Below, piece after piece: positions 4,097-27,100 of a DNA stretch of 64,000 bases (positions are counted from its first letter, which is position 1; each line of letters opens with the position of its first letter). The notes under the pieces were generated by a model. The model had not been told where the DNA came from. It made no database searches and saw only the letters and a program-made list of their open reading frames with translations. A program made the translations under genes and the position numbers. The stretch is from Tildeniella nuda ZEHNDER 1965/U140 (GTDB taxonomy: Bacteria; Cyanobacteriota; Cyanobacteriia; Leptolyngbyales; Leptolyngbyaceae): assembly GCA_019358895.1 (NCBI GenBank), contig JAHHIG010000016.1, positions 1-64,000 of the forward strand, written 5' to 3'.

Positions 4097-4245
4097 GATT
4101 TTCGATCTGCAATCGCTCTTTTGAGTCCATTTTGCAGTAATGTAAAGCGCAATCAAGTTGCGATAGCACCCATTATGCAAGTCATGACTTTTCAGATCCC
4201 TGTTTCAGTCTGGTTTTAGGTTAATTGCAGAAGACGTTAAAATTC
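4097..4245. promoter_or_regulatory. divergent intergenic promoter region of the methyltransferase and sspB-like genes
   Basis: About 150 bases separate the start codons of two divergent genes and must hold both promoters. An 8-base palindrome, GTCATGAC, lies near 4182-4189 and could be an operator. I could not assign convincing -35/-10 boxes on either strand. Confidence 0.35.
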
Positions 4246-5190: not shown

Positions 5191-5196
5191 GCTGAC

Positions 5197-8100: not shown

Positions 8101-8727
8101 AAGTTAGTGCAGGTGTTGCGAGAAATTCATAGCGCCTACGACACGCTGCTGATGGAGTGTGAAACGCTCCTGTATCATGCCTTTGGTCTACGCAGCGATC
8201 GCCACCAGATCCGACAAGACCTTCAGTTTCGCGCCAAGTATTTGCTGGGCAACTGCCTTGAAATGAGCTTGAATCGGTTTGTGCGGGCAGCGGCAGACGA
8301 AACGGTGAGCGATCGTATCTGGCTAGAGTCGTTGCTGATGATTGTGGCAGATAAACCAACTGAAGCCTGGGCAGAGAAGGACGTAACTGCCTTTGAGTTG
8401 AATTTAAGCGACCTGGCGCGGCGGTTCAAAAATTTGGAAGCATTGCAAAAGGAAGTGGCGGCGGGGAGTAGCGGTGGGTTTGAGGTGCGTCGGTTGACGG
8501 TGACTCGTCCTGACGGTAGCGAGATTCATCGCATGGTCTGGGTCGATCAGGAGCAGCAACCCTTCGTGGATGGCTTAGTGGCAGAACTTTTAGCCAGAAC
8601 CGACTTATGCAATCAGCCTCAACTTCAGCAAGCCTTAGTCGCTCGGTTAACTGAGACGGTGCTAGGCAATGCCAGTCAGTTCCTACTTGCGCTATCCAGC
8701 GATCGCCCACAACCCATCTACCCCTAA
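5197..8727 (+). CDS. sspC: large P-loop ATPase, SspC / BrxC-like
   Basis: This 1176-residue protein begins with GTG at 5197, six bases after the DUF4007 stop. A Walker A motif, GVYGTGKS, lies at 63-70 and a Walker B motif, LLVLDELG, at 193-200. The rest is long, mostly helical and has no other motif I recognise. Its size, its N-terminal P-loop and its place between a DUF4007 gene and a PAPS-reductase-like gene match SspC of phosphorothioation systems and the BrxC ATPase of BREX type 4. It probably couples ATP hydrolysis to DNA nicking or sulfur insertion. The frame is intact, in contrast to the second ATPase remnant at 14665. Confidence 0.75.
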   Translation: MTALSHYFSLHRRYHRSINLERDFDNPDAVESYVLTERSLEALQRMLAAFENPKAQRAWTLIGVYGTGKSAFANYLTALCAPENSKAANQAWHVTEQALPKESPLLEQILETLPPQGLLRCVAVGQREPLSWTVMRALANGCQEFWSRKQKPDWFQTLTDWGAEVAVGRCQITNQQVLTLLEQVTQAAKTQVLLVLDELGKNLEYAVNHGGTDDLYLLQQIAELRYKGKYQVHFVGLLHQSFAGYSERLSAIEQNEWTKIQGRFETMQFTESASQMTRLIGQAIERSEGEASDRLASVCDQTAKAWFKALKPVLVGQGIAAKDLSAAYPLHPMTALVLPLLCTRYAQNDRSLFTFLTSHEPHGLTEFLTASTFDGDRIPTLQLHQLYDYFVEAATGLASRINLQRWVEIQGLIQDAQTQNEAVLNVLKTIGILNLITATGALKASPALVAFALCDHPDDTAALEHWQAVIKDLTQKGIITYRNQTDDLKLWEGSDFNVEAAIYQLLEKERLPLAQLLTRARPLQPIVAQRHYSTTGNLRYFEQQYADSLTPLTALCCHAPSTDGLIVYWLDRQLPGETPAQTVDGKPLIVITTTQLDLLRTRAQQLQALKTIHKEATALQTDGVARREVKHRLVDAERLLDDTLQQAFNWSVGQNQCWIAGKATIIPKTQAFQALLSDLCDRTYHLGLRLDNEFINRRGLTSQSAKARRELIEAMLEQSHQPRLGLEGYGPEVAMYYSVLEATGIHRQGEEEWDFQPPKLESGVATVWQAIEQFCLGATNQPQSLQQLYQQLANPPYGVKQGVIPVLLAALLIYYIDEVSVYKDGTFISVLGAEHFELLVKDPARFTVKHIEVAGVRSQVFRELEAMLRSSPAKGRTGSRNLTILSVVKPLVQFARKLPAYTLKSKRISTEAQAVIQTLLQTQEPDELLFTALPQACGLKPIRLAPPEAEASTVNDETETATARLFREKLVQVLREIHSAYDTLLMECETLLYHAFGLRSDRHQIRQDLQFRAKYLLGNCLEMSLNRFVRAAADETVSDRIWLESLLMIVADKPTEAWAEKDVTAFELNLSDLARRFKNLEALQKEVAAGSSGGFEVRRLTVTRPDGSEIHRMVWVDQEQQPFVDGLVAELLARTDLCNQPQLQQALVARLTETVLGNASQFLLALSSDRPQPIYP

Positions 8728-10066: not shown

Positions 10067-10876
10067 ATGGCGGGCATGGTAAACAAGACTGTGAGACATA
10101 TCCTGGGGCTTTCGGGCGGCAAGGACAGTACCGCGCTGGCAATCTTATTGCATCAAGAGGTGCCCCAAATGGAGTACTTCTTTTGCGACACTCATCGTGA
10201 ACTGCCGGAAACTTACGAGTATCTGGAACGAGTTAAAGCTCGACTTGGCATCAAAATTCACTACTTGAGTGCAGAGAGAGGTTTTGAGCATTGGTTAGAT
10301 ATTTATGGTGGCACACTGCCTTCGCCTCAAATGCGCTGGTGTACCAAGCAGCTTAAAATTAAGCCTCTAGAAGAATTCATTGGAAACGATGAAGCGGTCA
10401 GCTATGTAGGCATTCGAGCAGATGAGTTCCGCGAGGGCTACATTTCAACTCGTTCAGCCATCAAAGCCGTTTATCCCTTTAAGGAACGCGGGCTAGTCAA
10501 AGCTGATATTCTGCAACTGCTGGAAGAGAGCGGCATTGGGCTACCCAGCTACTATCGCTGGCGCAGTCGTTCGGGCTGCTATTTTTGCTTCTTTCAGCGC
10601 AAATATGAATGGGTAATGCTGGCGGAAGAACATCCGGATCTCTTTGCCAAAGCGATCGCCTACGAGCAAAACCACATAGACGGTAGAACCTACACCTGGA
10701 CGCAAGGCGAAACGCTGCAAGCATTGCTGGCTCGTAAAGAGGAGATTATTGCCAATCACCACAAAGCAATGGCGCGAGAGCAACAGACCGCCCCCAATCG
10801 CCCTTTGGTGGAAGCATTGGCAGAAGTGTTAGATGAAGAAGACGATACGTTACCGTGTCTGGCTTGTCACCTTTAA
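10067..10876 (+). CDS. sspD: PAPS-reductase-like ATP pyrophosphatase, SspD / DndC / BrxP-like
   Basis: A 269-residue protein of the adenine nucleotide alpha-hydrolase fold. The PP-loop SGGKDS is at 16-21. Cysteines fit an iron-sulfur site: C92 in RWCTKQLK, then C171 and C174 in SGCYFCF. A further C264-x-x-C267 pair sits at the C-terminus. DndC and SspD use this fold to activate the DNA backbone by adenylation before sulfur is added, taking sulfur from a cysteine desulfurase. In BREX type 4 the equivalent is called BrxP. It is the downstream partner of the sspB- and sspC-like genes. The desulfurase that would feed it lies at 25937. Confidence 0.85.
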   Translation: MAGMVNKTVRHILGLSGGKDSTALAILLHQEVPQMEYFFCDTHRELPETYEYLERVKARLGIKIHYLSAERGFEHWLDIYGGTLPSPQMRWCTKQLKIKPLEEFIGNDEAVSYVGIRADEFREGYISTRSAIKAVYPFKERGLVKADILQLLEESGIGLPSYYRWRSRSGCYFCFFQRKYEWVMLAEEHPDLFAKAIAYEQNHIDGRTYTWTQGETLQALLARKEEIIANHHKAMAREQQTAPNRPLVEALAEVLDEEDDTLPCLACHL

Positions 10877-11600: not shown

Positions 11601-11692
11601 GTTTGTGTCGGTGAATTCTCATCAAACGCTGGGAAAACTAAGACAAGTTGATCAGAATGGATCAGAGTCCGCTTCACCCCAAGTCGAATGTT

Positions 11693-12517
11693 ATGCCAGC
11701 GCTGAAACTCAGTTTTCATGGAACCTTTGCCCTCAAGAAACAGGATGTGCTGAAACTCCTGGAAGTGGCTGAAACAGAGCAGGGCTTACATGGGTCTCTG
11801 ATGGAACTGGTGGAGCGAACTGGGTTAGGTAACGAGAAAGTTCTACGGATAAAAAGCTGGGCAGTGCGATCGGGTTTAGTGCATCAAAACCACCTCAGCC
11901 CCGAAGGAGTCGTAGTCCGAACGTGTGACCCCTATTTAACCTCTCCCGTTACCGATTGGTTAATGCATTCCCATCTCAGCTTTAGCGATCGCGGCTTGCA
12001 ATCTCCCCCTGCCAACCCTGCTGAGTGGGGCGGTTGGTCTTACTTTGTCTTTTGCTTTTTGCCAGAACACCCAGAGTTTACGCTGGATGAATTAGTCAAA
12101 GCCAGTGCTCCAGTTTTTGAGGATGTCTCTTCCAGGCTGCTGCGAACCAATTTTCGCTTTGTGCTGCGGGCATATACCGAAGTGCAGGCGCTGTGGTCTT
12201 GTCGGTTTGTGCAGAGTTTGGGCAACAATCGCTTTCGTAGTGGTGAAGCTCAGTTACCCAATGCCGAACTGTTAGGCTACTTTCTAGCAAAACTGTGGCA
12301 GCGGGACTTTGGCGCACAAGAGACCGTAGCCCTCACCCAGTTGCATCAACCAATGGGGCTTGCTCCCATTCTCGGCATTAGCGATCTATCGTCCTGCCTG
12401 CAACGGCTAGAAACACAGGGACTACTACGGCAAAGTGACAACCAGGGAGACAGCCAGATTACCCGTTGCTGGCAAGATCCTTTATTTTTGCTCAAAAAAG
12501 CGTATGGCAGTGGCTAA
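11693..12517 (+). CDS. DUF4007 family protein, second subfamily (copy 1)
   Basis: The ATG at 11693 (MPALKLSFHGTFALKK) gives 274 residues and aligns with the start of the following paralogue. Shared DUF4007-type blocks are FxxxFALKK, then GLGNEKV...SWAVRSGL, VTDWLMH, PAEWGGWSYFVFCFLP and FTLDELV, and near the end LLGYFLAKLWQRDFG. It resembles the sspB-like protein at 4246 in order of blocks but is clearly divergent. The role is unknown. Together with copy 2 it begins the series that continues with a nuclease-like protein, an ATPase fragment and, beyond a 4-kb interruption, the kinase-PglZ fusion. A DNA-recognition or adaptor role is inferred. Confidence 0.65.
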   Translation: MPALKLSFHGTFALKKQDVLKLLEVAETEQGLHGSLMELVERTGLGNEKVLRIKSWAVRSGLVHQNHLSPEGVVVRTCDPYLTSPVTDWLMHSHLSFSDRGLQSPPANPAEWGGWSYFVFCFLPEHPEFTLDELVKASAPVFEDVSSRLLRTNFRFVLRAYTEVQALWSCRFVQSLGNNRFRSGEAQLPNAELLGYFLAKLWQRDFGAQETVALTQLHQPMGLAPILGISDLSSCLQRLETQGLLRQSDNQGDSQITRCWQDPLFLLKKAYGSG

Positions 12518-12623
12518 ACTGAGTGGTTTTACTTTTTAGGCTGGGCACTCTAGACATTAGACAAAGCCTGTTCTAAGTGCAGCGAAAATAATCTGAGATT
12601 TGTTGTTTAGCCCCCTCAACCTT

Positions 12624-13556
12624 ATGCCACAGTTACAGCTAGGTTTTCATACTTCGTTTGCCCTCAAAAAAGATGACATCATCCGCATTCTAGAGGCTGC
12701 TACTGAGGATCAAGGGCTGAATGATTCACTCGAAAACTTGATCGATCGCACAAAGCTCGGCAACAAGAAAGTTGGTCCCATGAGAAGTTGGGCGATTCGA
12801 TCGGGTCTAGTAAGTGGCGATCGCCTGAGTCCAGAAGGGGCGATCGCTTGGAAATACGATTTTGGTGTCAAACCAGAAAACCGCTCAAGAGATTATAACG
12901 ATCGAATCATACCTGTCACCGATTGGCTGATGCACTTTTACCTCAGCCTCGGTGTGCAGGGCGCAAAGGACGATCGTAAAAGCAAATACACTGGCGTTGG
13001 CGAAACCCTACAACCACCACCCACTGATCCAGCAGAGTGGGGCGGTTGGACGTATTTCGTGTATGCGTTCTTACCCGATCACAAAACCTTTACGTTAGAT
13101 GAATTACAGACCTATTGTGCCTCCATTTTTGCACCAGGCACAGGCAAGCATCCCGAAAAAGATTTGAGGGATAATCTGCGAATTGTGCTGCGGGCTTACT
13201 GCGAACCAGAGGCGATCGCGGGTTGCAAATTTCTCGCTCAAACCGATAAAGAAGCCTACACCGCTGAAGACAGCGACTTGCCCAACCTCGATTTAATGGC
13301 TTATTTCCTGGCAAAGCTCTGGCAGCGAGACTTTAGCGATGCGACATCTGTTCTAACAGATGACATTTTGCAGCAACCAATGGGTTTGGCGAGTGTCTTA
13401 GGGGTAAACACCTCAACCTTGCAAACCGTGCTCAACCAGCTAGAAACTGCCGCTCTGATTGAGCAACGTCGCACCGTCTCACCAGCCCAGATTATCCGTC
13501 GTTGGCATGACCCACTCACACTGCTAGAAAAGTCATATACCCATTCACTCAGCTAA
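12624..13556 (+). CDS. DUF4007 family protein, second subfamily (copy 2)
   Basis: The ATG at 12624 (MPQLQLGFHTSFALKK) gives 310 residues. It is a paralogue of the protein encoded just upstream: the same FALKK start, KLGNKKVGPMRSWAIRSGL, VTDWLMHFYLSL, PAEWGGWTYFVYAFLP, FTLDEL, LMAYFLAKLWQRDFS and QQPMGLASVLGV blocks. It carries about 20 extra residues around 85-130. The next gene starts 5 bases downstream, so the two are co-transcribed. The pair probably arose by tandem duplication followed by divergence. Confidence 0.65.
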   Translation: MPQLQLGFHTSFALKKDDIIRILEAATEDQGLNDSLENLIDRTKLGNKKVGPMRSWAIRSGLVSGDRLSPEGAIAWKYDFGVKPENRSRDYNDRIIPVTDWLMHFYLSLGVQGAKDDRKSKYTGVGETLQPPPTDPAEWGGWTYFVYAFLPDHKTFTLDELQTYCASIFAPGTGKHPEKDLRDNLRIVLRAYCEPEAIAGCKFLAQTDKEAYTAEDSDLPNLDLMAYFLAKLWQRDFSDATSVLTDDILQQPMGLASVLGVNTSTLQTVLNQLETAALIEQRRTVSPAQIIRRWHDPLTLLEKSYTHSLS

Positions 13557-13561
13557 CTACG

Positions 13562-14212
13562 ATGACAACCTCAAAACCAAGGTCTCAAATATCGGCGAAA
13601 GCGAAGAAGCGAAATTTTTCTAGTTTCGATAAAAAAGCTGCGTTCAAACAACTCAATCTGGCTGACCTTTTACCTTGGAGTTTGGACATTGAGCCTGTTC
13701 CAGTCAGCGATTTTTTTGCGGAGCGGCTCGCTCGCCTCAAGCGGCATTTTGACCTGGAAAGTGGTGAAGAAGCCAAAAAACTGCTGATTGATGCCATTTG
13801 TGATGAAGCGTTAGAAGGGTTCGATCGGCTCAAAATTTGGAAAGCGGCACCTCTAGAAAGCAACACGCTTTGTGGCATGGTCGATTACCTGACTGCCGAA
13901 CGCAAACGCTACTTGGAAGCCCCTTTCCTTTGCATTGTGGAAGCAAAAAAAGATGACTTTGAACAGGGCTTGGCACAATGTTTGGTCGAAATGCAAGCCT
14001 GCCAATGGAGCAATGAGCAAATCGGCAAAACGATCGATGTGTTGGGAATCGTCACCAACGGCGAGGGTTGGAAATTTTATCAACTGACTACTGCTGGAGT
14101 GGTCTACGAAACGCTCCTCTATGCTCTTAGCGACATGGGCACGCTCTTAGGAGCCTTGCACAATCTCTTTCAGCTTTGTGAACACAATTTGGGAGAGGGG
14201 GAACATGGTTGA
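13562..14212 (+). CDS. PD-(D/E)XK nuclease-like protein
   Basis: A 216-residue protein. After a basic N-terminus it has VPVSDFFAERLARLKRHFDL and then APFLCIVEAKKDDFEQGLAQC. The VEAKK segment with following helix is the E-x-K half of a PD-(D/E)XK fold, and VLGIVTNGEGWKFYQL is the strand that often follows in type I restriction HsdR-like N-terminal domains. The next gene starts inside its last codons (ATG at 14205), so translation is coupled. I infer a nuclease or DNA-binding subunit of the second module. Whether the catalytic set is complete is uncertain because the expected upstream Asp is not obvious. Confidence 0.5.
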   Translation: MTTSKPRSQISAKAKKRNFSSFDKKAAFKQLNLADLLPWSLDIEPVPVSDFFAERLARLKRHFDLESGEEAKKLLIDAICDEALEGFDRLKIWKAAPLESNTLCGMVDYLTAERKRYLEAPFLCIVEAKKDDFEQGLAQCLVEMQACQWSNEQIGKTIDVLGIVTNGEGWKFYQLTTAGVVYETLLYALSDMGTLLGALHNLFQLCEHNLGEGEHG

Positions 14213-14636: not shown

Positions 14637-14664
14637 CCACACCTCCTCACTCTTGGGTTCGTTC

Positions 14665-15230
14665 ATGCAACTCCACGAAATTGTCAGAATTAACGAAAAT
14701 GGATTGGTCGCCAATGCCGTTAGCTTCGAGCTAATGGATGACCCCGACAAAAATTTGCGCCTCTGTCAAGGATTCGTGTTTAACTATGACCCCGACCCTA
14801 GGCAGCTTAAAACGTCCACGATCGGCGTGTTGGATGCTTTGCGACGGAGCTTCCACAGCCCCAGCGAACCCAATGTACATCTCATGGTGCAGGACTACGG
14901 TAAGGGGAAATCTCACTTCGCGCTGGCGATCGCCAACTTCTTCCAGAAACCCTTTGACAGTGCCGAAGTGCAGGGCGTATTGGAACAAGTTGCCTATGCA
15001 ACGAATCAAGGCAGTTTGCTAGAGGGCTTAACACCTACAAAAAACGCGGCAGGCATCTAGTGCTTTGCTTAAGTGGTGACAAGCGAATCGACCTGCGAAA
15101 GCAATTCTTGCAAACCCTGCGAAAAATGCTGGATCAGGAAGGCGTAACAGACGCGATCGCTCAACATATTTGTCAGCGTCCCCTGAAATTTTTGGAACGA
15201 TTGAACCCAGACCAACGGGCGATCGCATAA
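14665..15230 (+). pseudogene. N-terminal remnant of a second large P-loop ATPase
   Basis: The ATG at 14665 (MQLHEIVRINENGLV) opens a frame with the Walker A variant DYGKGKSH in MVQDYGKGKSHFALAIANFF, about 80-90 residues in. The frame stops at 15060. The adjacent frame continues the same protein: YKKRGRHLVLCLSGDKRIDL, then QTLRKMLDQEG to a stop at 15230. Loss of one A in TTAAACACC (near 15033) explains the shift. Even restored, about 188 residues remain, while such ATPases normally exceed 1000. The 3' part is therefore missing, and unrelated minus-strand genes begin one base further on. It is non-functional. Confidence 0.75.
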
Positions 15231-15231
15231 T

Positions 15232-15600
15232 TTATAGGTCTAATTTACCGAAGTCAATGCTTTCAACTTCTTCGACGATGAATCCTTGATTTACTTCCTC
15301 TGGAAATCGTTTTGCCATCTGTTGCCAAGCATCTTCCTCGTTTTCTGCCTCAATATCGTATTGTTGCTTGGGTAAAGCATTTCTGCGACCCTTAAACTGC
15401 CTTTTCAGAAAACCCGCTTGGTTTAGCGATTCGATCAACGATGTGGGTTGCCTACCTTCAGTAATCTCGCCCTTCTCTAAATAGCTTTTGTATAGGCGGA
15501 TAACAGCTTCTTCAACAACTACGTCTGCATCTTCGACCTGAAGATGATCTTTTAGCACGTCTAGAAGCTTGGTGGCATATTTACTCAGCTTTATTTCCAT
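15232..15600 (-). CDS. hypothetical protein
   Basis: A 122-residue protein of no recognised family. The N-terminus (MEIKLSKYATKLLDVLKD) and VVVEEAVIRLYKSYLEKG are helical. The C-terminus has a predicted small alpha/beta unit, QQYDIEAENEEDAWQQMAKRFPEEV, of the kind seen in small cyanobacterial accessory proteins. It ends one base from the stop of the ATPase remnant, tail to tail, and marks the left edge of the interrupting segment. Confidence 0.5.
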   Translation of the reverse strand: MEIKLSKYATKLLDVLKDHLQVEDADVVVEEAVIRLYKSYLEKGEITEGRQPTSLIESLNQAGFLKRQFKGRRNALPKQQYDIEAENEEDAWQQMAKRFPEEVNQGFIVEEVESIDFGKLDL

Positions 15601-16028: not shown

Positions 16029-17429
16029 ATGGGTAAAGTAAGTGACGCACTGAAGCAGGTCTTAGGAAAGTACGGAATCAGCCAAAACCAGTTGGCGATC
16101 GCATTGGGTGTAGATCGCCCTATCTTTTTTCGCTGGTTTCATGGGCAAGTAGATCCCTCAGCCGAAACTGTTGCGGATATTGCTAAAGCGATTCATAACA
16201 TTGATGGTGAAGCATCTAGGGAGTTTGCAAGGCTCTATCTAGGGTATTGGACAGATAGTGAGCAAGAAGGCTTAATCATTCCAGAAGTAAACCAGCTTCC
16301 CCAATCCGAAGCTTTAGATGTCGCTGCACTCTCTAGACTGTTCTCAGATACGACGACTTCTTATAAATTTCTCTTCTTCATTTCACTCTTAGACATCCTG
16401 AAACGACGGCAGTTTGACGTTCTATCGCCTATCAGCTTTCAAGAGATAATCGTTGAGATGCTTGCTAATGCCTGGTATCCGCATACTTACTTTAAGTTAT
16501 CGTTCGGTTCTCAGGACAAGATTGCACAGAAGCTAGATTCATTAGTTTTAGACATTAGTGAACCCATCCTCAAGTTTACAGATACCGATAAAAAGTTACT
16601 GCGTAAGGCTATTGCCTCTCAAAATCTCAAGGATGTCATCAGCCATTTGAAAAAATATGTCCCATTCCGCCTTATCATCCCTTTTTTGGAGCAAGAGCTA
16701 GAAGGCGTTAGCCGAGGTAAAGGGAATGAGCTAGATGTAGCGATGCCTGCGATCGCTGAAAAGCACTTCGATCTCAAAAAGCCTCTTTACCGCTTCGATT
16801 CAAGTAAATATAGCGGTTGCCAATCTATCATCGTTCATCCAGATTGGGCTGCTTATATAGAGAAGCATTACGCCATCGTTCGTGGATGGGCATCATGGGA
16901 GTGGTTGAACTATATGCAGCCAAGGAATTCTAATGTTCCAGGCATCGTCAACAAAATTTTTATGCCTCAACAAAGAGGCTCTTTATCTAATCAAACTAAA
17001 TATTGGAGGCTGGTATTACAGCATCAAACTGTAAGTTGCATTTATTCTGGGCAGCCTCTAAGCCTGGATAAGATTGCTCTTGATCACTACTTGCCTTGGT
17101 CATTTGTAGCGCATGACCAAATCTGGAATCTAATCCCAGTGATTCCAGAGGTCAATTCATCTAAATCTAATAACTTACCAGCGACACAGTACCTTAAAGC
17201 ATTCGTCGCTATCCAGCATCTCGGACTAACCATCTCCCATAACAACTTAGGAGAGAAAGCCTGGGGTAACTATATTGAACCTTTTATTGGTGATTTGAAA
17301 ATGAGTCCTGAAGACTTACTTAACTTAGAAAGGCTAGAAAATGCTTATGCAGCAACAGTTACGCCGTTAATGATATTAGCGGAGAAGCAAGGGTTTTCTT
17401 CTAACTGGATCTATAGACTGGCGCAGTAG
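16029..17429 (+). CDS. XRE-type HTH and HNH endonuclease domain protein
   Basis: A 466-residue protein. Residues about 5-65 form a Cro/C1-type helix-turn-helix: DALKQVLGKYGISQNQLAIA, GVDRPIFFRWFHGQ, AETVADIAKAI. The middle is unassigned. The C-terminal third has an HNH-like motif: CIYSGQPL, then ALDHYLPWSFVAHDQIWNLI and VNSSKSNNLP; the DH...N residues match the metal-binding histidine and asparagine. The second zinc-knuckle Cys of many HNH proteins is not evident. Such fusions are found among defence islands and mobile DNA. The likely role is DNA cleavage with promoter or DNA recognition by the HTH. It carries two GCGATCGC octamers. Confidence 0.65.
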   Translation: MGKVSDALKQVLGKYGISQNQLAIALGVDRPIFFRWFHGQVDPSAETVADIAKAIHNIDGEASREFARLYLGYWTDSEQEGLIIPEVNQLPQSEALDVAALSRLFSDTTTSYKFLFFISLLDILKRRQFDVLSPISFQEIIVEMLANAWYPHTYFKLSFGSQDKIAQKLDSLVLDISEPILKFTDTDKKLLRKAIASQNLKDVISHLKKYVPFRLIIPFLEQELEGVSRGKGNELDVAMPAIAEKHFDLKKPLYRFDSSKYSGCQSIIVHPDWAAYIEKHYAIVRGWASWEWLNYMQPRNSNVPGIVNKIFMPQQRGSLSNQTKYWRLVLQHQTVSCIYSGQPLSLDKIALDHYLPWSFVAHDQIWNLIPVIPEVNSSKSNNLPATQYLKAFVAIQHLGLTISHNNLGEKAWGNYIEPFIGDLKMSPEDLLNLERLENAYAATVTPLMILAEKQGFSSNWIYRLAQ

Positions 17430-18355: not shown

Positions 18356-19153
18356 TTAACCTTTATGGAGCAAGATTGATAAAACCTCTGACACAACATC
18401 ATGAGGACGTTCTAGACAATCTCTTGCTGTAAATCTGACAGTCGGTACACCTGCTCGGAGCATTACTCTATCACGGGCATAATCTCGAATGACTTGCCCC
18501 TCACCTAAATGATGCTGACTGTCTACTTCTAGGCTTATACATTTGCCTTGATGGAATACTAGAAAATCAACTTCAACCCGTCCAGTAAGCTGGCTATCGC
18601 TGATAGTTGTCTCTTGAAGTCCAACCCGTCCACGCGCATTAGCAAAGAACAATACGTCAGTGCGGTCTAGTGCTTCTGCAATCCTGACTTCAGCTTCCGA
18701 TCGCAGATATAGTCCTCCCCACTCTCTTGAGTAGTTGCCACTTGCCTCGGTTTTAGTTTCAGAAACCGTTAAAGCCGTACCAGCAATCAAAATCTCAATT
18801 TGTTGCTTTCACGAGTCGCTGCAAAAAATTCGCCATTGGTGTTGAGTCTTAGCACCGTTCGGTTGCCCTAAATAAGCGAGGTGCAGCAATTTATTGACCT
18901 CTAAGTACAAGCCTGGACGGGTTTTGTTATATAGCTTTTGGTTGATGGACTGCCTAACTTTCTTTCGCTGCTTGGCATCAAGTGATCTGCTGCGAGGATT
19001 GAGCGCGATAATCACGTCCAGCAGTTTGGTTGTTGAAACTTGAAAGGAGTGAGGTAACTTACCACCACTTGTAACTAGAGCACCACTGTCAATGTTTTGC
19101 GCTTTACCCTCTAGATCAAGACCGATGCTTGCATCATCCGTGTTAGATTGCAT
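18356..19153 (-). pseudogene. DUF559-like endonuclease-fold protein split by an in-frame TGA
   Basis: From the ATG at 19153 (MQSNTDDASIG) a frame runs 114 codons to TGA at 18809-18811. The same frame continues without shift (KQQIEILIAGTALTV) for 150 more codons to 18356. The second half holds a Vsr/DUF559-like core: VEVDFLVFHQGKCISLEVDSQHH with the D...E-x-D pattern, a conserved RDYARDRVMLRAGVPTVRF helix-strand and a closing helix. A CGA-to-TGA change would create this stop. Alternatives are two separate proteins, the second from TTG at 18790, or readthrough. It is divergent from the truncated kinase gene. Confidence 0.6.
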
Positions 19154-19984
19154 AACTTTTCCTATAAGTCCTCTCCTAAGCTGCCCATAAACCAAGCCCC
19201 TGTTTACGATTGCACCTACTCTATTTTGGTTGAGAAATTAGCAAACATCACGCCCGATACTATTTTGATTGATGCGGATGGGCAGGCGCGGCTCACGGGC
19301 TTTGACTACGCCCGGATTAGCACCAATAGCAGCACGATCGCCCAGGATATTGCTGAAGATTTGGCATCATACGCACCCTATCAAGCGATCGAATGTCAGA
19401 ACGATCCATCGCAGGCAAGCAATAACTCAGATCTATTTTCGGCTGGGTTAGTTTTCTATGAATTACTAACGGGTGTCCCTGCCTTTGCATCCATCGATCA
19501 AATGCATACTCAAAAAGCGCTTTTCCCAGTCAAAGCCAGCGATCGCACCCCCGCTCTACCGTCTGATATGGATGGATGGTTACAAAAGCTCTGCGCCTTT
19601 AAGCCCAGCGATCGCTTTACCAACGCCTATGCCGCTCTAGACGCATTGGCACCGCTGGCAACACTGCCAACCGTCGATATTACCAATCTGCCAACGGATT
19701 ACATCCTTGATGACCGCTATCGTGTAACGCGGCGATTGGGTCGTCCTGGTAGCTTCGCCGTCGCCTATCAGGTCTTTGACACGTTGGATGAAACTGTTCA
19801 GGTACTCAAGCTGATCACCCGCGATCGCCGCTCCGTCTACGAACGCCTCCAGCAAGAATATAGAACCTTACGCCGAGTTCCCAAACATCCCATGTTGTGG
19901 AAACCATTTGGGCTGGCAAGTTCAGCGATAGTACCCCATTTATTCTGTTTGAGTATGTGGATGGGCAAGATGTGGAACATTTGA
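19148..19984 (+). pseudogene. 5' part of a dual protein kinase-PglZ gene (truncated and frameshifted)
   Basis: Residues about 34-164 are the C-lobe of a Ser/Thr-kinase-like domain (ITPDTILIDADGQARL, SDLFSAGLVFYELLTGVPAF, KPSDRFTNA); its N-lobe and catalytic loop are absent upstream. From about 184 a second kinase N-lobe follows: YRVTRRLGRPGSFAVAYQVF with glycine-rich loop and LKLI with K221. The frame is lost at about 19891 after PKHP. The family motif HPNVVE is recovered in the frame of the next gene if one A is restored, so residues after 247 are not real. The missing start was probably removed with the 4-kb interruption. Confidence 0.8.
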
Positions 19985-22890
19985 TTGAATCGAAAGCGCT
20001 GTCCTTAGAACAAGCAGTGAAGATTGCACAACAAACCGCTCTCGGTTTAGCCCATTTACACCAGCATCAAGTCCGTCATCAAGATATCAAACCATCAAAC
20101 TTGTTGCTAACAGAGGATGGTATTCGCATCATCGATTTTAATGTGGCTGTGATGGATGGCGACGAAACCACCATCAGCGCAGGCACACGGCGCTATTTGC
20201 CCCCTGATTACAAACCCGCCCTCCATGCCAGCCCTGCCGAAAAGATCGATCGCGATCTCTATGCGCTCGGAATTGTCTTTTACGAATGTGTCACCGGGAA
20301 CTATCCTTTCTCAGAACCGCATCCACCCCTTGGGAAAGCTGCCCGTCACCCCACTGAGTTTGCAAGCTGCGAGGGTTTAAGCCAGGAATTGATTGCTTTA
20401 CTGTTGCAGGCGATCGCTCCCAACCGTCGCGATCGCTTCACCTCGGCTGAAACTTTTGCAACAGCAATTTCCCAATTAGTAACCCTGAGAAAACTCGCAG
20501 AACAACCTGCTGTGGTTGTTCTGCCAGAAGTAGAAGCGCCAGAAGTACAAGTCATTGTTGATCCAATCCCAGTTATTCCCACTATTCCTGAACCGATCGC
20601 AACCGTTGAAACCATCGACCCGTCAGCACGTCCAGATACTGTCCCCGAAACCGTTGCTGCTGATTTGTTTGACACATTGACCGATGAATCAACGCCCCTC
20701 GATCCATCTCGTCCCATCGTGTTAGATCCAACCGGACTTTATCCCATTCCCGCTCACTATGTTGCCATCACCAATGAGGTTGAATGGTTTCGACTCTTTG
20801 GCGTTGGAGCTTCCCCCTATTGGGTTAAAGGTAAGCGCCTGTGTGATTGGGCGATCGAATGGTTGCGACTGAGAGGCAGAGAGCAGACAATCCAAATCAA
20901 GCAAGATCCTCGCCCCAGATTAGAGGCACTCTTTCATCCTCTGCCCTTACCGAGTGAATGGAATCATGCTCAACTGCTGGCACTCTCCAGTAAATTAGAT
21001 GAGTATTCTCACCATTCGATCGCTCACTTATTGGCAGATGTAACCAACCATGATTTGCAGGTATGGCTGGGTGAACCTTCAATCCATCATCTTGCTGCTT
21101 GGTTAAGCATCCAAGTACCTGCATCCCATCAAATTTTCGAGCAAGTTTGGCAACAGCAAATTCCAACCAATCCACTCACCCCGTATTACCAGACGCAAGA
21201 CAAGCGATCGCTCCTGTGCCGCTGGCTCGGCATCGCCCAACCTACCCTTACCGAACTCGACCCCTACCCGTTACCGATCCCTGACTGGCTCACGGATGAG
21301 TTTGACCAATTTTGGCAGCAGGAACTTTATCGCAGCGATGCCAGCATTCTCGATCGTCTGATTCTAGCAACGCAACCGGGACGCGATCGCATTACCAATC
21401 AGGCATTCAAGGTTTTGACCAATCGCCCCAGTTTGATTACGAAAGCGAGAGAAACCAAGCTTTCTGCCTATTTGACCCATCAGCAGAAAGTGGAGTTAAG
21501 CGATCGCCAATCGCCCCCTCAACCTGAACCTTTGTCGTTAGATGCCAGTCCGCAACAAGCCCTAGCCTGGGCAACCACGAGCTATTTGCCCTTTCGCCGT
21601 TGGGAAATCGTAACGCAGGTTAGTGCGACTCAACGGATGAGCGATCGCCTTGCCGATAGCTTTGTGGAATGGTTGCTCAGACACTATCCTGACCTCAAAG
21701 AAGAATCGGTTAGCGATTCCCACCTGAATTACAGTGTGGCTTCGCTGGTGCGCCAGAGCTGCCAAACAAACCCAGTGCTGTGGGTTGTTGTGGATGGCTT
21801 AGGCTGGTTAGATCACCAGGAATTATTGGGTTATTTAAGCCGTGAAGCAAAGCTAACGGTTGAACAGTCTTCAGCGCGATTTAGTCTGCTGCCAACCCTC
21901 GCAAAATACGCCAAATGGAGTCTCTACAGCCAGCTTCTACCCGAACACACAACCTGGGCAGATGAGATGGATAAGGCGTTTGCCACCCTTGGCATAGGAG
22001 AACGCTATACCGATCACCGCAAGGCAGAACTGCTGCGCGATTTACGCACCGGAAAGCATCAACTTTACTGTTGGGATAACACTCAGTTTGATAAACTTTT
22101 TCACAGTGCTAGAGATTGGAAACATCTCTACAACGTTGAACGTCCAGCGGTCTTGAAAACGATCGCCGCCGAAATTCAATCCTGTATAGATGAGTTTCCC
22201 CATCCAGAGCAACTGCAAATTATCATTGCTACCGATCACGGGCAACTGATGGGTGAATTGGCTCAAATCCTTCACTGTCCCGATGGCTTAAAAGTTGAAG
22301 GCAGAGTGGCGATCGGTGAAACAGATGATCCACGCTTCGTTGTTCTTAAAGGCGATCGCTACGGACTGCCCCATAACTTCAGCATTGTCCGGGATGCTGC
22401 CAGCTTTGGTTCCTACAGCTACACCACCAATAAAGCCATTATTGGCTCTCATGGGGGACTCTTTCCTGAAGAGGTCGTCGTCGGGGTCTCGGTGCTGCGT
22501 CAAGCCGTTACGCGCCAGCCAGTGATGCTTCACTGTGAGGGCACAGGAGAGGCTGGCAAGCCAGGAACGTTGGCAATCACGGTGAATAATCCAAATCCAA
22601 TTGATTTAACCAATCTTTGCCTACGGATCAAAGAGTTAACGACCTTTAAGACTGGGCTACCATTGGAGCAAGCTATTCCAGCCAACCAGAAAATTACCTT
22701 CAGCCTTGCCATTCCCGATTGTCCTGCGCTATCACCTGACCACCCAGGCGATCGCCTTTCTCTTTCCGGCGAACTCACCTTTTGCTTTGTCCAGGCAGAA
22801 CCAGGAATAGCCCCTCTGGATACTGCTTCAGCCATTGCCATTCAGCAAATCTTTAGTAGTGGGGGGCTAGACATTAATGAATTCCTCTAA
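19897..22890 (+). CDS. pglZ: kinase C-lobe fused to PglZ phosphatase-like domain
   Basis: A 997-residue frame beginning at GTG 19897, downstream of the one-base deletion, so it is probably the 3' part of a larger gene. Residues 1-195 are a kinase C-lobe with catalytic loop HQDIKPSN (61-68) and DFN (80-82) in place of DFG. A Pro/Val-rich linker (205-270) follows, then a middle region, then a PglZ domain of the alkaline phosphatase superfamily: VVDGLG at 631-636, ATDHG at 778-782, SHGG at 851-854 and LFPEEVVVG. PglZ is the hallmark BREX protein. The brxL start overlaps its end by 14 bases. Direct fusion of kinase and PglZ is unusual. Confidence 0.85.
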   Translation: METIWAGKFSDSTPFILFEYVDGQDVEHLIESKALSLEQAVKIAQQTALGLAHLHQHQVRHQDIKPSNLLLTEDGIRIIDFNVAVMDGDETTISAGTRRYLPPDYKPALHASPAEKIDRDLYALGIVFYECVTGNYPFSEPHPPLGKAARHPTEFASCEGLSQELIALLLQAIAPNRRDRFTSAETFATAISQLVTLRKLAEQPAVVVLPEVEAPEVQVIVDPIPVIPTIPEPIATVETIDPSARPDTVPETVAADLFDTLTDESTPLDPSRPIVLDPTGLYPIPAHYVAITNEVEWFRLFGVGASPYWVKGKRLCDWAIEWLRLRGREQTIQIKQDPRPRLEALFHPLPLPSEWNHAQLLALSSKLDEYSHHSIAHLLADVTNHDLQVWLGEPSIHHLAAWLSIQVPASHQIFEQVWQQQIPTNPLTPYYQTQDKRSLLCRWLGIAQPTLTELDPYPLPIPDWLTDEFDQFWQQELYRSDASILDRLILATQPGRDRITNQAFKVLTNRPSLITKARETKLSAYLTHQQKVELSDRQSPPQPEPLSLDASPQQALAWATTSYLPFRRWEIVTQVSATQRMSDRLADSFVEWLLRHYPDLKEESVSDSHLNYSVASLVRQSCQTNPVLWVVVDGLGWLDHQELLGYLSREAKLTVEQSSARFSLLPTLAKYAKWSLYSQLLPEHTTWADEMDKAFATLGIGERYTDHRKAELLRDLRTGKHQLYCWDNTQFDKLFHSARDWKHLYNVERPAVLKTIAAEIQSCIDEFPHPEQLQIIIATDHGQLMGELAQILHCPDGLKVEGRVAIGETDDPRFVVLKGDRYGLPHNFSIVRDAASFGSYSYTTNKAIIGSHGGLFPEEVVVGVSVLRQAVTRQPVMLHCEGTGEAGKPGTLAITVNNPNPIDLTNLCLRIKELTTFKTGLPLEQAIPANQKITFSLAIPDCPALSPDHPGDRLSLSGELTFCFVQAEPGIAPLDTASAIAIQQIFSSGGLDINEFL

Positions 22891-24325
22891 CGCGATCGCA
22901 TACGACAATACTCTCGTGCGAGATGTTTTCAATACACTTAGCATCGACAAAACTCGCTTGCCCTCTAGTGGATTAACCGCGATCGGCATTCCCAGCTTTG
23001 TTGCTGAATGGTTGCTGGATAAAATTGTGCCAGGTACAGGGGCACTCACCCGTACCGAACTCGAAAAGGTCAACAACTTTGTCAAAAAAGCGTTTCCACG
23101 CAAGGACGATCGCAACGAAATCATTTTTGATCTGACTCAGGGAGAAGTTCACAAACTCATTGCCCTGATGCAAGTGCGAGTCACACTTGACCAAAGAGCC
23201 GGGGTGATTCCCGATCCCTTCGCTCGGATTCCAGTGATCAATTTGAATGACTGCTCGATTCCCACTGACCTGATTGAACGTAACAAAATGCTGCTCCGCC
23301 AGGGCGTTTGGGGGAAAATCAGCATTTCGATGCGATCGGACGGCAAAGTTGAGGTGATGGATTTTGATCCGTTTCAATGTTCTAAAGTCGATCTGCAAGC
23401 CTATGCAAACTGTCGAGCAAAATTTACCACCGAAGCATGGCGCGATTTACTCTTTTGCTCCATGGGCTTTAATCCCCAACATCGCCATTACTCCCAGGAA
23501 GCCAAAACCTGGATTCTCGCCCGTCTATTGCCATTGGTTGAGTCCAATTATCATGTGATGGAATTGGCTCCCAAAGGGACTGGAAAAAGCTTTGTGTTTG
23601 AGAACATCAGCAGTAAGGTGGCACTTGTCAGTGGTGGCAAAGTGACACCCGCTCAACTGTTCATCAATGGTCGCACGAAGGAAGTCGGTTTGCTGGGGCG
23701 GCACGACGTAGTGGTTTTAGACGAAGTGCAAAGCCTGACCTTCGAGAATCCTGACGAGGTAATTGGTCCATTGAAAAATTACCTTGCGAGTGGTCGCTAC
23801 AACCGGGCAGGGTTTCAGGATGTTGCCAGCGATTGTTCCTTAGTCATGCTGGCAAATATTGACCTGAATGAGCAACTGCAACCCCGTAATCCAGAAAACT
23901 TAGTTTCCAATCTGCCGTCGTTTTTTGCGGAAACCGCCTTTCTCGATCGCTTTGCAGGCATCATTCCGGGCTGGAAAATTCCCAAGTTTCAACGCGAAAT
24001 GGCAGCGTCTCAAGTGGGCTTGAAAATGGACTTCTTTGGTGAAGCACTTCTCTCTCTGCGTCAAGACAATCGGTTTTTCTCCTATGCTCAAGAACATACC
24101 CAATTTAATCAAAGCGCAACGGTGCGTGATCAAAATGCCATTCTCAAATCAGCCGCAGGGTTTCTCAAACTTTTTTATCCACATCTAGAACTAACCTTAA
24201 TGGACTACCAGCGAGACTGTCTGGAACCCGCCAGAACCTTACGTCAAGCGATTCGCAATTCTCTGTATCATTTGGATGATGAATTTAGACAATTTGGACT
24301 TGAAATTTACGCAGAAATACGCTGA
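22877..24325 (+). CDS. brxL: BrxL-like AAA+ ATPase, short form
   Basis: A 482-residue protein starting at ATG 22877, 14 bases before the pglZ stop. An N-terminal region with WLLDKIVPGTGALTRTELEKVNNFVKKAFP-like spacing and LLRQGVWGKI matches BrxL. The AAA+ core has Walker A APKGTGKS (231-238) and Walker B VVVLDE (278-283), then SFFAETAFLDRFAGIIPGW. It ends soon after the ATPase and lacks the C-terminal Lon-protease-like domain of the roughly 680-residue BrxL of BREX type 1. BrxL proteins form DNA-binding rings needed for phage interference. The frame appears intact. Confidence 0.85.
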   Translation: MNSSNAIAYDNTLVRDVFNTLSIDKTRLPSSGLTAIGIPSFVAEWLLDKIVPGTGALTRTELEKVNNFVKKAFPRKDDRNEIIFDLTQGEVHKLIALMQVRVTLDQRAGVIPDPFARIPVINLNDCSIPTDLIERNKMLLRQGVWGKISISMRSDGKVEVMDFDPFQCSKVDLQAYANCRAKFTTEAWRDLLFCSMGFNPQHRHYSQEAKTWILARLLPLVESNYHVMELAPKGTGKSFVFENISSKVALVSGGKVTPAQLFINGRTKEVGLLGRHDVVVLDEVQSLTFENPDEVIGPLKNYLASGRYNRAGFQDVASDCSLVMLANIDLNEQLQPRNPENLVSNLPSFFAETAFLDRFAGIIPGWKIPKFQREMAASQVGLKMDFFGEALLSLRQDNRFFSYAQEHTQFNQSATVRDQNAILKSAAGFLKLFYPHLELTLMDYQRDCLEPARTLRQAIRNSLYHLDDEFRQFGLEIYAEIR

Positions 24326-24380
24326 ATAATTAGGTCTAACTACGTCAAACCGAAGCTCATCTTATCGTGGCTAAAGCTCT

Positions 24381-25244
24381 ATGAAGACGATCGTGTTTTA
24401 TCACAACAAAGGGGGAGTTGGCAAAACGACTGCCTCCATCAATCTGGCTACAGCGCTTCAATGTCTAGACTATCGAGTGCTGCTCATCGACTTAGATGCT
24501 CAGGCAAATGCGACGTTTGCCACCGGGCTAGTGAAATTTCAATTCGATGAAGAAGACGATATAAAAGCCCGGAATGTCTCTCATCTGTTAGAAAGTTCTG
24601 AGTTCCATTTCATCCCGGAGATCGTGAGGCGATCGCAACATTTTAGCAAACCAGAACTTGACATCATTCCTGCTCACGTTGACCTGATCGAGAAGCAAGA
24701 TAAGCTAAACAAATACATCACCACTCGCACCCGATTGCATAAAAAATTGAAGCTGGTTGAAGATCAGTATGATTTTGTCATCATTGACGCGCCACCCTCC
24801 CGCGATGTGTATGCTCAGGTGGCTCTCATCACTGCCGACTATCTCATTATTCCATCCGATTTAAAACCCTTTGCAAACCAAGGCTTGCCCACCGTCAGAC
24901 AATTCATCACCGAAGAAATTAACGAGATCCGGCAGAGTACAGGTAAAGATAATTTGAAAATATTAGGGATTTTACCATCCAAAGTTTCAACCAATCCCAG
25001 ATATCTTGACTACGTTTTTCCACGCCAAAAAAATACGGTTATCGAGCAATATGGTCTGCCGATTCTCAATTCTATTATTTTTGAACGCACTGCCTTATCC
25101 AATTGTCTCAACCAAACCTTGGAAGTCGGCGATTTGCTCTATCCCGATCCCAAGTCAATCTTTATGTTTGACTCCAAATCTGAGTCTGCCAAAGAATTTA
25201 CCAAGCTTGCCGAGGAAGTATTACACAAAGTGGGGATGAACTAA
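24381..25244 (+). CDS. parA: ParA-family ATPase
   Basis: A 287-residue MinD/ParA-type protein. The deviant Walker A KGGVGKTT is at 10-17, the A' motif LLIDLDAQANAT around 34-45, and Walker B FVIIDAPPS about 125-140. Such ATPases move DNA or position cargo on the nucleoid. It stops in a TAATG overlap with the next gene, a ParB-like protein. Its place between brxL and the cysteine desulfurase gene suggests a working part of the defence locus or a plasmid-derived remnant. No repeated centromere-like sites were seen nearby. Confidence 0.85.
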   Translation: MKTIVFYHNKGGVGKTTASINLATALQCLDYRVLLIDLDAQANATFATGLVKFQFDEEDDIKARNVSHLLESSEFHFIPEIVRRSQHFSKPELDIIPAHVDLIEKQDKLNKYITTRTRLHKKLKLVEDQYDFVIIDAPPSRDVYAQVALITADYLIIPSDLKPFANQGLPTVRQFITEEINEIRQSTGKDNLKILGILPSKVSTNPRYLDYVFPRQKNTVIEQYGLPILNSIIFERTALSNCLNQTLEVGDLLYPDPKSIFMFDSKSESAKEFTKLAEEVLHKVGMN

Positions 25245-25924
25245 TGGTTGACTTTTTTCTGGTTGAAACGAAATTGATTTCTTCTTCTCAACCTGTATCT
25301 AACTTCAGTCAGCCCGAAATTGATAAACTAGCAAAGCTCATTCTGGATACGAATGGTTTGTTACGTCCTTTAGTTCTTAAAGAAACAGGCTTCGAGCAGT
25401 ACGACGTTGTGAGCGGACATCTTGAATATTATGCTGCGGTGCGAGCGAAAGAGAAAAATCCGCAGAAAGCAGAAATGGTCAATGCCCTGGTGATTGAATC
25501 TGAAGAAGAAAAGACGGCAATTCAGCAAGCACAACTGCTAGAGCAACTGTACAGCACCACGAAACCAGACTCAACGAACAGCATTACACCCTTAGATACT
25601 CTGGCTTCTAACCTGGAGGATCTCTTCAATCGGGAACTGAACGCCATGTCTCAAAAGCTAGACACAAACCTTCAGCGCATTGCTGACCAACTTCCTAAAC
25701 AAACAAAACCGATCGATGTGTTTAATCAACTTCGTGATGTTGACCTGACGCGCAGGTTGATTTCAGTCGGTGTTAAAGGGAAAAATCTAGAGAAAATTGT
25801 TGGACAGATTGTGAAGAAACGCCCCTTTATCTCTCTCTCAGAGGTGGTGAAGCAAGTTAACGGCTTAAGCGAGAAAAAGATGGTTGAAATTGTGGATAGT
25901 TGGGCTGATCTTCTCTTTACATGA
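25244..25924 (+). CDS. ParB/Srx-like protein with C-terminal helix-hairpin-helix
   Basis: A 226-residue protein overlapping the parA stop by one base. The N-terminus resembles a ParB/Srx fold: IDKLAKLILDTNGLLRPLVL, YDVVSGHLEYYAAVRA (the ParB equivalent of V-x-G-x-R/H-R). A helical linker follows, then a C-terminal stretch RLISVGVKGKNLEKIVGQIV and ISLSEVVKQVNGLSEKKMVEIV, which looks like a helix-hairpin-helix. ParB proteins load on DNA and stimulate ParA. The classical ParB central HTH is missing, so this is a divergent type probably specialised to this system. The desulfurase gene starts 12 bases downstream. Confidence 0.65.
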   Translation: MVDFFLVETKLISSSQPVSNFSQPEIDKLAKLILDTNGLLRPLVLKETGFEQYDVVSGHLEYYAAVRAKEKNPQKAEMVNALVIESEEEKTAIQQAQLLEQLYSTTKPDSTNSITPLDTLASNLEDLFNRELNAMSQKLDTNLQRIADQLPKQTKPIDVFNQLRDVDLTRRLISVGVKGKNLEKIVGQIVKKRPFISLSEVVKQVNGLSEKKMVEIVDSWADLLFT

Positions 25925-25936
25925 TCTTCTCTTAAT

Positions 25937-27100
25937 ATGGACAATCCTATCTACCTCGACTATCACGCCACCACTCCAGTTGACCCCAGGGTTGCCGATC
26001 GCATCTATCACTACATGACAATAGAATTTGGTAACGCTAGCAGCGTGGATCATGAGTATGGCGATCGCTCAGAAGATGCGGTCAAACAAGCTGCTAAACA
26101 CGTTGCTGCTTTAATTGGAGCCTCACCAAGAGAAATCATTTGGACCTCTGGCGCAACTGAAAGCATCAACCTGGCAATTCAAGGCAGTCTTCCCTCCAAC
26201 CCTGAAAAGCCGCACCGAATCATACTGTTACCACTCGAACACAAAGCCGTTCTGGACACCTGCCAAGCGCTTGCAAGGCGAGGTTGGGCAGAACTGATCT
26301 ACCTTCAAGTTGATTCCAAAGGCAGACTCGACTTTGATCATCTAGAGCAAGTTTGTATGGAGGGGGTGTCCCTTCTCTGCGTCATGGCTGCCAATAATGA
26401 GATTGGCAATATCTACCCGATCCAAAAGATTGGACAAATTGCTCAGCGCTACGGCATTCCTTTCCTCTGCGATGGCTCTCAGGCAGTAGGCAAAACTCCC
26501 ATCCAGTTTGAGGAATGGGGCATCACTTATCTAGCTCTTTCCGCCCATAAGCTCTATGGACCCAAAGGTGTTGGAGCCTTAGTCGTTCGCAGGGGCTACT
26601 ATCTCGAACCTTTACTATTTGGAGGTGGGCATCAGAAAGGAATGCGATCGGGTACCCTCAACGTTCCCGGCATTGTAGGGTTGGGAGAGGCTTGTCGGTT
26701 ACGATCTCTGGAAATGGAAGAGGATGAGCGATCGATCGCTATTAAACGAGACAAGCTCCAGGCTCTCTTCTTAGAAAGAATTCCTGGTTTAGTGGTGAAT
26801 GGCGACATTAACTATCGATTAGCTGGTAATCTCCATATCTCTGTTCCTGGCATTCCTAACAGCGCTGTTATTGCCAGAGTACGCCATCGCCTTGCCATCT
26901 CAACAGGTTCAGCCTGTTCATCTGGCGTTGAATTACCTTCTCACGTTCTTCAGGCACTTCGCTTGCCAGAGATTGTTGTAGATGGAGCACTCCGAATTGG
27001 ACTGGGAAAGTTTACTACAGAAGAGGAAATATGCGACGCTGTTGTAATTCTCTCTGAGACTATTGCTCAGATTCAGCAGGTTCTCTACGCCATGTCTTAG
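25937..27100 (+). CDS. sspA: cysteine desulfurase, SspA / DndA / IscS-like
   Basis: A 387-residue class V aminotransferase-fold enzyme. It starts YLDYHATTPVDPRV. Pyridoxal phosphate lysine K205 lies in SAHKLYGPKG, H102 in LEHKAV stacks on the cofactor and C327 in STGSACSSG is the catalytic persulfide cysteine. All key residues are intact. It takes sulfur from L-cysteine and would donate it to the SspD-like protein for phosphorothioation. Many phosphorothioation loci rely on a chromosomal IscS, so a desulfurase at the end of this operon supports the sulfur-modification reading. An ordinary iron-sulfur biogenesis role cannot be excluded. Confidence 0.85.
   Translation: MDNPIYLDYHATTPVDPRVADRIYHYMTIEFGNASSVDHEYGDRSEDAVKQAAKHVAALIGASPREIIWTSGATESINLAIQGSLPSNPEKPHRIILLPLEHKAVLDTCQALARRGWAELIYLQVDSKGRLDFDHLEQVCMEGVSLLCVMAANNEIGNIYPIQKIGQIAQRYGIPFLCDGSQAVGKTPIQFEEWGITYLALSAHKLYGPKGVGALVVRRGYYLEPLLFGGGHQKGMRSGTLNVPGIVGLGEACRLRSLEMEEDERSIAIKRDKLQALFLERIPGLVVNGDINYRLAGNLHISVPGIPNSAVIARVRHRLAISTGSACSSGVELPSHVLQALRLPEIVVDGALRIGLGKFTTEEEICDAVVILSETIAQIQQVLYAMS

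Follow-up and report, generated by a model that had tools for sequence, protein, structure and literature searches.

The 64,000-nucleotide stretch of Tildeniella nuda DNA analysed here (the window) raises the question of why a ParA/ParB-type gene pair lies inside a BREX/Ssp defence operon. Two intact open reading frames, encoding a ParA-type ATPase and a protein with a ParB/Srx fold (hereafter ParB-like), share one operon between brxL and a cysteine desulfurase gene (Table 1). The ParA gene starts 55 bases after brxL, the two genes of the pair overlap by one base and the desulfurase gene follows after 12 bases, confirming the operon reported in a preliminary description of this DNA. Relatives could be aligned with both proteins (13 ParB-like and 12 ParA), indicating that the pair is not a chance arrangement. 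The reading that we favour, with a probability of roughly one half, is that the pair belongs to a two-gene accessory module, self-contained and widespread on cyanobacterial chromosomes, and that its nuclease-less form has become cargo in a slot of a damaged type-4 BREX/Ssp locus here.

Table 1 Gene pair, slot borders and BREX/Ssp genes of the host locus (positions in the 64,000-nucleotide window)
Feature	Position	Strand	Length, matches and remarks
SspC-like ATPase	5197-8727	+	1462.9 bits
SspD-like PAPS reductase	10067-10876	+	–
DUF4007-like gene, first of tandem	11648-12517	+	Pfam 3.9e-9
DUF4007-like gene, second of tandem	12600-13556	+	Pfam 3e-4, below cut-off; PADLOC SspB 6.5e-6
Large-ATPase remnant	14653-15362	+	covers residues 17-205 of the 1827-aa relative in G001 by blast, extending to about 253 if internal stops are allowed
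Kinase-PglZ	19148-22890	+	two frames, 19148-19984 and 19897-22890; compared with the 1588-aa relative in G001, about 323 N-terminal residues are missing
BrxL, short kind	22877-24325	+	482 aa; BrxL_ATPase 7.8e-107 (Pfam), BrxL 2.4e-128 (PADLOC); left slot border
ParA-type deviant Walker A ATPase	24381-25244	+	287 aa; AAA_31 2e-49 (Pfam)
ParB/Srx-fold protein (ParB-like)	25244-25924	+	226 aa; ParB_N 2e-6 (Pfam)
DndA/SspA-type cysteine desulfurase	25937-27100	+	Aminotran_5 7.9e-72 (Pfam); DndA 3.4e-137, SspA 5e-137 (PADLOC); right slot border

The AlphaFold2 model of the window ParB-like protein (mean pLDDT 84.4, pTM 0.46) comprises a ParB/Srx domain (residues 1-104), a long helix (117-149) and a helix-hairpin-helix (HhH)-like C domain (152-224), in line with the ParB fold that structure prediction had been proposed to examine. 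The N domain matched Myxococcus xanthus ParB (7o0n; Z 12.1, rmsd 2.2 over 90 residues) and plant sulfiredoxin (Z 10.6, rmsd 3.9 over 87 residues). The C domain, which is small and helical, gave modest Z scores with 1wg8 (Z 7.4, rmsd 2.3 over 71 residues) and the ComEA-related 2duy (Z 6.5, rmsd 2.7 over 60 residues), and we take both matches to be HhH domains. A family profile search agreed, with a hit to AF1531 (6e-6) over residues 162-222, and one relative had a weak HHH_6 match (0.0012); the window protein itself matched no HhH family in Pfam at E 0.1. Judging from the fold comparison and the family profile, the C domain is probably HhH-like. No helix-turn-helix (HTH) family in Pfam was matched by the ParB-like protein, and the model has the long helix and the HhH-like domain at that place.

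G58, A68 and Q95 are invariant among 80 ParB-like sequences, and the former Box II region mostly reads G-x-x-E-Y-Y-A-A. The canonical CTP boxes, GxRRxRA and ENxQR, were present in none of 82 ParB-like proteins, nor was the ParA-binding motif LG(R/K)GL, which speaks against the initial idea that CTP switching is coupled to the defence complex. According to the available text of PMC12704722, the nucleotide bound by a ParB-CTPase fold is not reliably predicted by sequence analysis or AlphaFold3, and thus another nucleotide may bind the ParB-like protein. A repeat search of 23800-26300 detected two-copy direct repeats and short inverted pairs only and no iteron array, in line with the earlier statement that there is no obvious centromere. 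A 16-base near-repeat (88%) at 25906-25937 extends from the 3′ end of the ParB-like gene to the desulfurase start. Separately, residues 1339-1405 of PDB 9k3a chain B, labelled 'tail protein', resemble ParB and reach roughly the score of bacterial Noc against the ParB-like family profile; a search under this PDB code found no paper.

The window ParA has the deviant Walker A motif KGGVGKTT, with K10, K15 and D39 kept, and is devoid of the N-terminal HSDR_N-like domain typical of most relatives. Among the 79 loci from named genomes, this domain lies 5′ of ParA in 61, forming a single open reading frame with it in 57; it is lacking in 10 loci with enough upstream sequence, and 8 loci cannot be judged (the 'no domain' label required 600 bases upstream for the tree described below and 700 in a check of the best 30 loci from the class). 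The candidate PD-(D/E)XK residues are highly conserved in 60 such domains: E17 in 59, D48 in 58, E72 in 60 and K74 in 59. The domains of three scanned fusions matched Pfam PF04313/PF13588 weakly (1e-5 to 1e-2, best 1.1e-5), one of the three reaching the curated cut-off. The model of one fusion, from locus L020, had a mean pLDDT of 84.2, with low-confidence stretches within the HSDR_N-like domain, and its ParA part was closest to Soj in the fold search and also similar to McdA, the latter as a general ParA-fold match only. All of the 50 fold and 60 sequence matches listed for the fusion corresponded to the ParA part or to ParA-kind P-loop ATPases. With weak Pfam matches, low model confidence in part of the domain and a ParA-type fold list, the nuclease fold is predicted from sequence and unconfirmed structurally. 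The majority form of the module, as judged from sequence, is a predicted PD-(D/E)XK nuclease fused to ParA, with a partner composed of a ParB/Srx domain, a long helix and an HhH-like domain.

In a tree of 82 ParA sequences, from which 16 rows without an intact HNKGG(V/I)GKT motif and repeats of one core sequence had been excluded, the nuclease label changes nine times, at least seven of them forced, suggesting that the domain was repeatedly lost or gained. It is missing in several lineages, including that of the window, whose ParA is the sister of the ParA at locus L017 (Phormidesmis) with 100/100 support; both are without the domain. A separate nuclease gene at 13562-14212 was considered as a replacement for the lost domain and rejected: its relatives (E 0.001) occur in 17 of 20 BREX-carrying genomes at varied places, which argues against a special tie to the ParA/ParB pair. 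The PADLOC candidate PDC-M28B was also dismissed, as it matches mainly the ParA motif region.

We then turn to the gap between brxL and the desulfurase gene. The window BrxL was searched in 388 genomes of the class, 54 of which matched at E 1e-20, and the short kind, defined by at least 60% identity over at least 265 residues, was found in 21 genomes, the window's included. Four genomes were omitted when the slots were counted: G218, where no desulfurase was seen, G273, whose BrxL is at 39%, and G042 and G124, which have BrxL fragments of 71-75 residues. In the 20 loci with both brxL and the desulfurase gene, the slot held the ParA/ParB pair in two, namely the window genome (G000) and Phormidesmis priestleyi BC1401 (G009; loci L017/L031), was empty in ten (G050, G001, G036, G078, G316, G196, G054, G178, G137 and G013) and contained other cargo in eight. 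The other cargo consisted of nucleotidyltransferase, HEPN or HepT genes in G060, G055, G148, G386 and G177, a gene for a 389-390-aa protein in G111 and G329, and about 7 kb in G202 (ten slot cargo genes were run against Pfam, a set outside which the G202 cargo falls). This varied content indicates that the gap acts as an insertion slot, the pair being one of several cargoes. A regular presence of ParA/ParB between brxL and sspA, which the preliminary description had left to be counted, is not borne out, since the pair is absent from 18 of the 20 comparable loci, the genus-mate G001 included. The slot nucleotidyltransferase of G148 (L178, 8921-9337, minus strand) has a start that, by eye, resembles a copied desulfurase start. 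Downstream of the desulfurase, two genomes from a single genus carry a different ParA together with a 124-aa partner (L179, 11963-13119; and G178, L181).

The host locus itself is damaged. In the parts available to us, PMC12839542 gives PglZ, BrxL, a PAPS reductase, DUF4007, an ATPase and a cysteine desulfurase as the parts of type-4, phosphorothioation-based BREX and does not name ParA or ParB among them, consistent with the earlier remark that a partition ATPase is not a standard BREX part. The host locus resembles this system in its kinds of parts (PglZ, BrxL, PAPS reductase, DUF4007 and cysteine desulfurase), together with SspC-, SspD- and SspB-like genes, and departs from it in the pair, found in two of the 20 comparable loci. 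The large ATPase and the kinase-PglZ are both broken in the window, whereas the genus-mate G001 has open reading frames of 1827 aa at the ATPase position and 1588 aa for kinases-PglZ. Single frameshifts could be due to sequencing errors, which would hardly account for the loss of 1500 residues; the only other trace of the large ATPase in a genome search was a piece shorter than 100 residues, on a different contig. In G009, the genome search found no large ATPase and, at E 1e-20, no SspD, and the kinase-PglZ match begins at residue 860, near a contig end. SspD was also unmatched in G050, G078, G054 and G055, indicating that incomplete loci are not special to the carriers of the pair. The tandem of DUF4007-like genes in the window (11648-13556) compares with a single one in the genus-mate stretch L170. 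An HTH plus HNH protein is encoded at 16029-17429, inside the BREX locus, and has relatives of 42-53% identity in the BREX/Ssp stretches L173, L183 and L185. We also considered SspFGH for the host locus, SspH being FtsK-like according to the accessible text of its paper, and rejected it, since no scanned window gene matched SspH among the matches listed.

The ParB-like protein is patchily distributed. A single-sequence search matched 15 of 58 relatives, the window's own genome included, and gave no match in any of its six genus-mates. In an alignment search, strong matches, by our own cut at E 1.5e-18 or better, were obtained in 90 of 388 class genomes; the tally of 165 at E 0.001 seems to include ordinary ParB proteins, given weak, short matches. 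In the named genomes, 163 stretches encoding a relative yielded the 79 loci that were kept, and ParA was adjacent to the ParB relative in 77 of these loci, the two misses being L074, at a contig end, and L096, with 1.8 kb of upstream sequence free of ParA. A ParA match was also found near the ParB-like gene in 29 of the best 30 class loci. Pairwise distances of ParA and ParB correlated across 82 protein pairs (r 0.82, versus at most 0.114 in 500 permutations), partly as a result of shared descent, which alone also yields a correlation. The ParB-like protein and the short BrxL occur together in 9 of 21 genomes versus 4.9 expected (P 0.03), a mild excess that leaves room for a link with BREX; they are adjacent only in G000 and G009, and the short BrxL is absent from 81 of the 90 genomes in which the ParB-like protein is strongly matched.

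Comparison of the window with L017 gave dN/dS values by NG86 (YN00 in brackets) of 0.072 (0.116) for ParA and 0.148 (0.272) for the ParB-like gene, alongside 0.046 (0.056) for BrxL, 0.104 (0.163) for the desulfurase and 0.122 (0.187) for the kinase-PglZ, with dS of 0.73-1.26 by NG86 in the five genes. These ratios point to purifying selection on both genes of the pair, the ParB-like gene being the least constrained of the five, yet well below 1. A recent hitchhiker was rejected, since dS of the pair falls within the range of the neighbouring genes, and the pair was therefore probably in the operon before the two loci diverged. The window's contig encodes UvrA, FtsH, MnmG and CinA, all above NCBIfam cut-offs, and is thus taken as chromosomal, although no tRNA was detected on it; the stretches scanned gave no tRNA or Rfam match. 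In the plasmid collection PLSDB, the ParB-like query yielded two partial ParB hits and no full-length relative. With the fusion as query, 180 phage records matched, none covering 80% of it and with at most 33% identity among the 15 listed; among the 80 of 134 viral-contig matches kept, identity was at most 37%, with the ParA part as the main region matched. In both collections the fusion drew nothing but ParA-type matches. For the ParB-like protein, all PHROGs matches were weak.

Many neighbours of the stand-alone copies look housekeeping-like by eye (20 loci), and a glycosyltransferase-like gene lies near the pair in 33 of 79 loci; such shared neighbours suggest vertical inheritance in part. 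A gene, or a piece of one, combining a DEDD exonuclease, PD-(D/E)XK and FtsK lies near the pair, on either side, in 13 of 92 neighbourhood loci, a set that includes repeats of one genome (e.g. L019/L047). It is within 4 kb of the pair in 12 of these and 6.5 kb away in L073, and the genera include Trichodesmium, Okeania, Symploca, Scytonema and Tolypothrix. The C-terminal part of the encoded protein is like SspH (2.6e-65). This FtsK-nuclease gene is found in 55 of 388 class genomes, and 10 genomes have both it and the pair versus 12.8 expected, so that co-occurrence is not raised. The two are within about 3 kb in G133, G153 and G239, and 37 kb apart in G327; G133 and G153 belong to one genus and have short pieces of the gene. 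The probability of such close spacing in 3 of 10 genomes is 5.5e-7 under a simple uniform model that ignores shared descent.

What could the pair be, if not an accessory module? The preliminary description had suggested that it positions the defence complex, i.e. that it functions as a component of the type-4 BREX/Ssp machine and places this machine on DNA. The shared operon and strand, the short intergenic distances, the conservation of this order in two genera at low dN/dS and the mild co-occurrence with the short BrxL would all fit, but the pair is missing from 18 of the 20 comparable loci, even in the genus-mate G001, its relatives are mostly elsewhere, in genomes that for 81 of 90 have no such BrxL, and the machine is broken upstream of the pair in the window and is short of the large ATPase and SspD in G009. 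We consider this role unlikely. Still less probable is a stabilising, addiction-like cargo comparable to the nucleotidyltransferase/HEPN-type genes found in this slot at 5 of 20 loci, since neither protein convincingly matched a toxin-antitoxin family.

A chromosomal positioning or nucleoid-organising system, McdAB- or MipZ-like, in which the HSDR_N-like domain would serve DNA binding rather than defence, is a doubtful but serious candidate. It would account for the chromosomal location, the neighbours shared among loci, the plasmid search with two partial ParB hits and no relative of the pair, the phage matches that never cover 80% of the fusion and the closeness of the L020 ParA part to Soj, with its similarity to McdA; it is harder to reconcile with the patchy occurrence within genera of the window's own family, the near-invariance of the candidate nuclease residues (58-60 of 60 domains), and the copies in a BREX slot and near nuclease genes. 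A chance remnant of a plasmid partition locus, the outcome to which absence from homologous loci had been expected to point, is very improbable: the absence itself is largely observed (18 of 20 loci), and the resemblance to parAB and the lack of tRNA/Rfam matches on the scanned stretches would agree with such an origin, but UvrA, FtsH, MnmG and CinA on the same contig, purifying selection on both genes, the lack of a full-length PLSDB relative of the ParB-like protein and the iteron-free 23800-26300 region argue against it.

Returning to the accessory module, we infer more than the domain content, nuclease-residue conservation, constant pairing, slot behaviour and selection that were computed: the module probably acts on DNA, in defence or replicon upkeep. 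ATP-bound ParA dimers would bind DNA irrespective of its sequence. The ParB-like protein would dimerise through its long helix and hold DNA with its HhH, in place of the parS-reading HTH, while its altered ParB/Srx domain would contact ParA and trigger ATP hydrolysis. The pair would consequently move along DNA or cluster on it, and in the full form the fused nuclease, if active, would thereby be brought to DNA and cut it, most plausibly foreign or extrachromosomal DNA. It is a tentative proposal that the ParA-PD-(D/E)XK fusion and its parS-independent HhH-ParB partner serve DNA surveillance against foreign or extrachromosomal DNA, and that phosphorothioate-BREX loci recruited a nuclease-less version as cargo.

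The literature searched, with the exact domain name included, yielded no description of the module. Like ParABS (Soj/Spo0J, ParA/ParB), it combines a ParA-family ATPase with a deviant Walker A and a ParB N-terminal fold encoded by adjacent genes; unlike ParABS, it lacks the GxRRxRA/ENxQR patterns and LG(R/K)GL, shows no HTH and has no nearby repeat array, its ParB-like protein ends in an HhH-like C domain and most of its ParA proteins are fused to the HSDR_N-like domain. The N domain of most relatives shares with HSDR_N of type I restriction R subunits the weak PF04313/PF13588 matches and the kept D and ExK, but it is fused to ParA, is absent from the window copy and has a fold unconfirmed by structure. 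DndB, which the consulted text of PMC10853773 gives as the ParB superfamily protein of Dnd, is similar in that such a protein lies beside phosphorothioation genes; the present protein differs in its ParA partner and gave no PADLOC hit at E 0.1, in a library assumed to include DndB models. Compared with the ParB-CTPase-fold fusions of PMC12704722, the pair likewise has a ParB fold, a second domain and a neighbouring ParA, whereas 'helix-hairpin-helix' does not occur in the main text of that paper as available, which gives DUF3850 as the only such fusion consistently beside parA. The window exemplifies a kind of ParA/ParB-type pair that bears no marks of CTP switching or centromere reading and is nevertheless constantly paired, usually with a fused predicted nuclease. 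An active module would carry ParA-type DNA coating beyond segregation, into DNA surveillance. The brxL-desulfurase gap is a place to seek further accessory modules.

Several other genes recur around the pair. A second, different ParA lies upstream in 29 of 92 loci, usually on the opposite strand and at a distance of up to 5 kb (e.g. L069, 7352-8248, minus strand). In 17 of 92 loci, the ParB-like gene is followed on its own strand by a gene for a 221-229-aa protein (e.g. L033, 2039-2704, plus strand); the L033 protein had a weak ZorC match (9.3e-8) and the L069 protein none. In L033, the stretch 2770-8386 encodes a DEDD exonuclease, PD-(D/E)XK and FtsK protein, and such genes are often accompanied by an AAA ATPase and a 278-aa protein.
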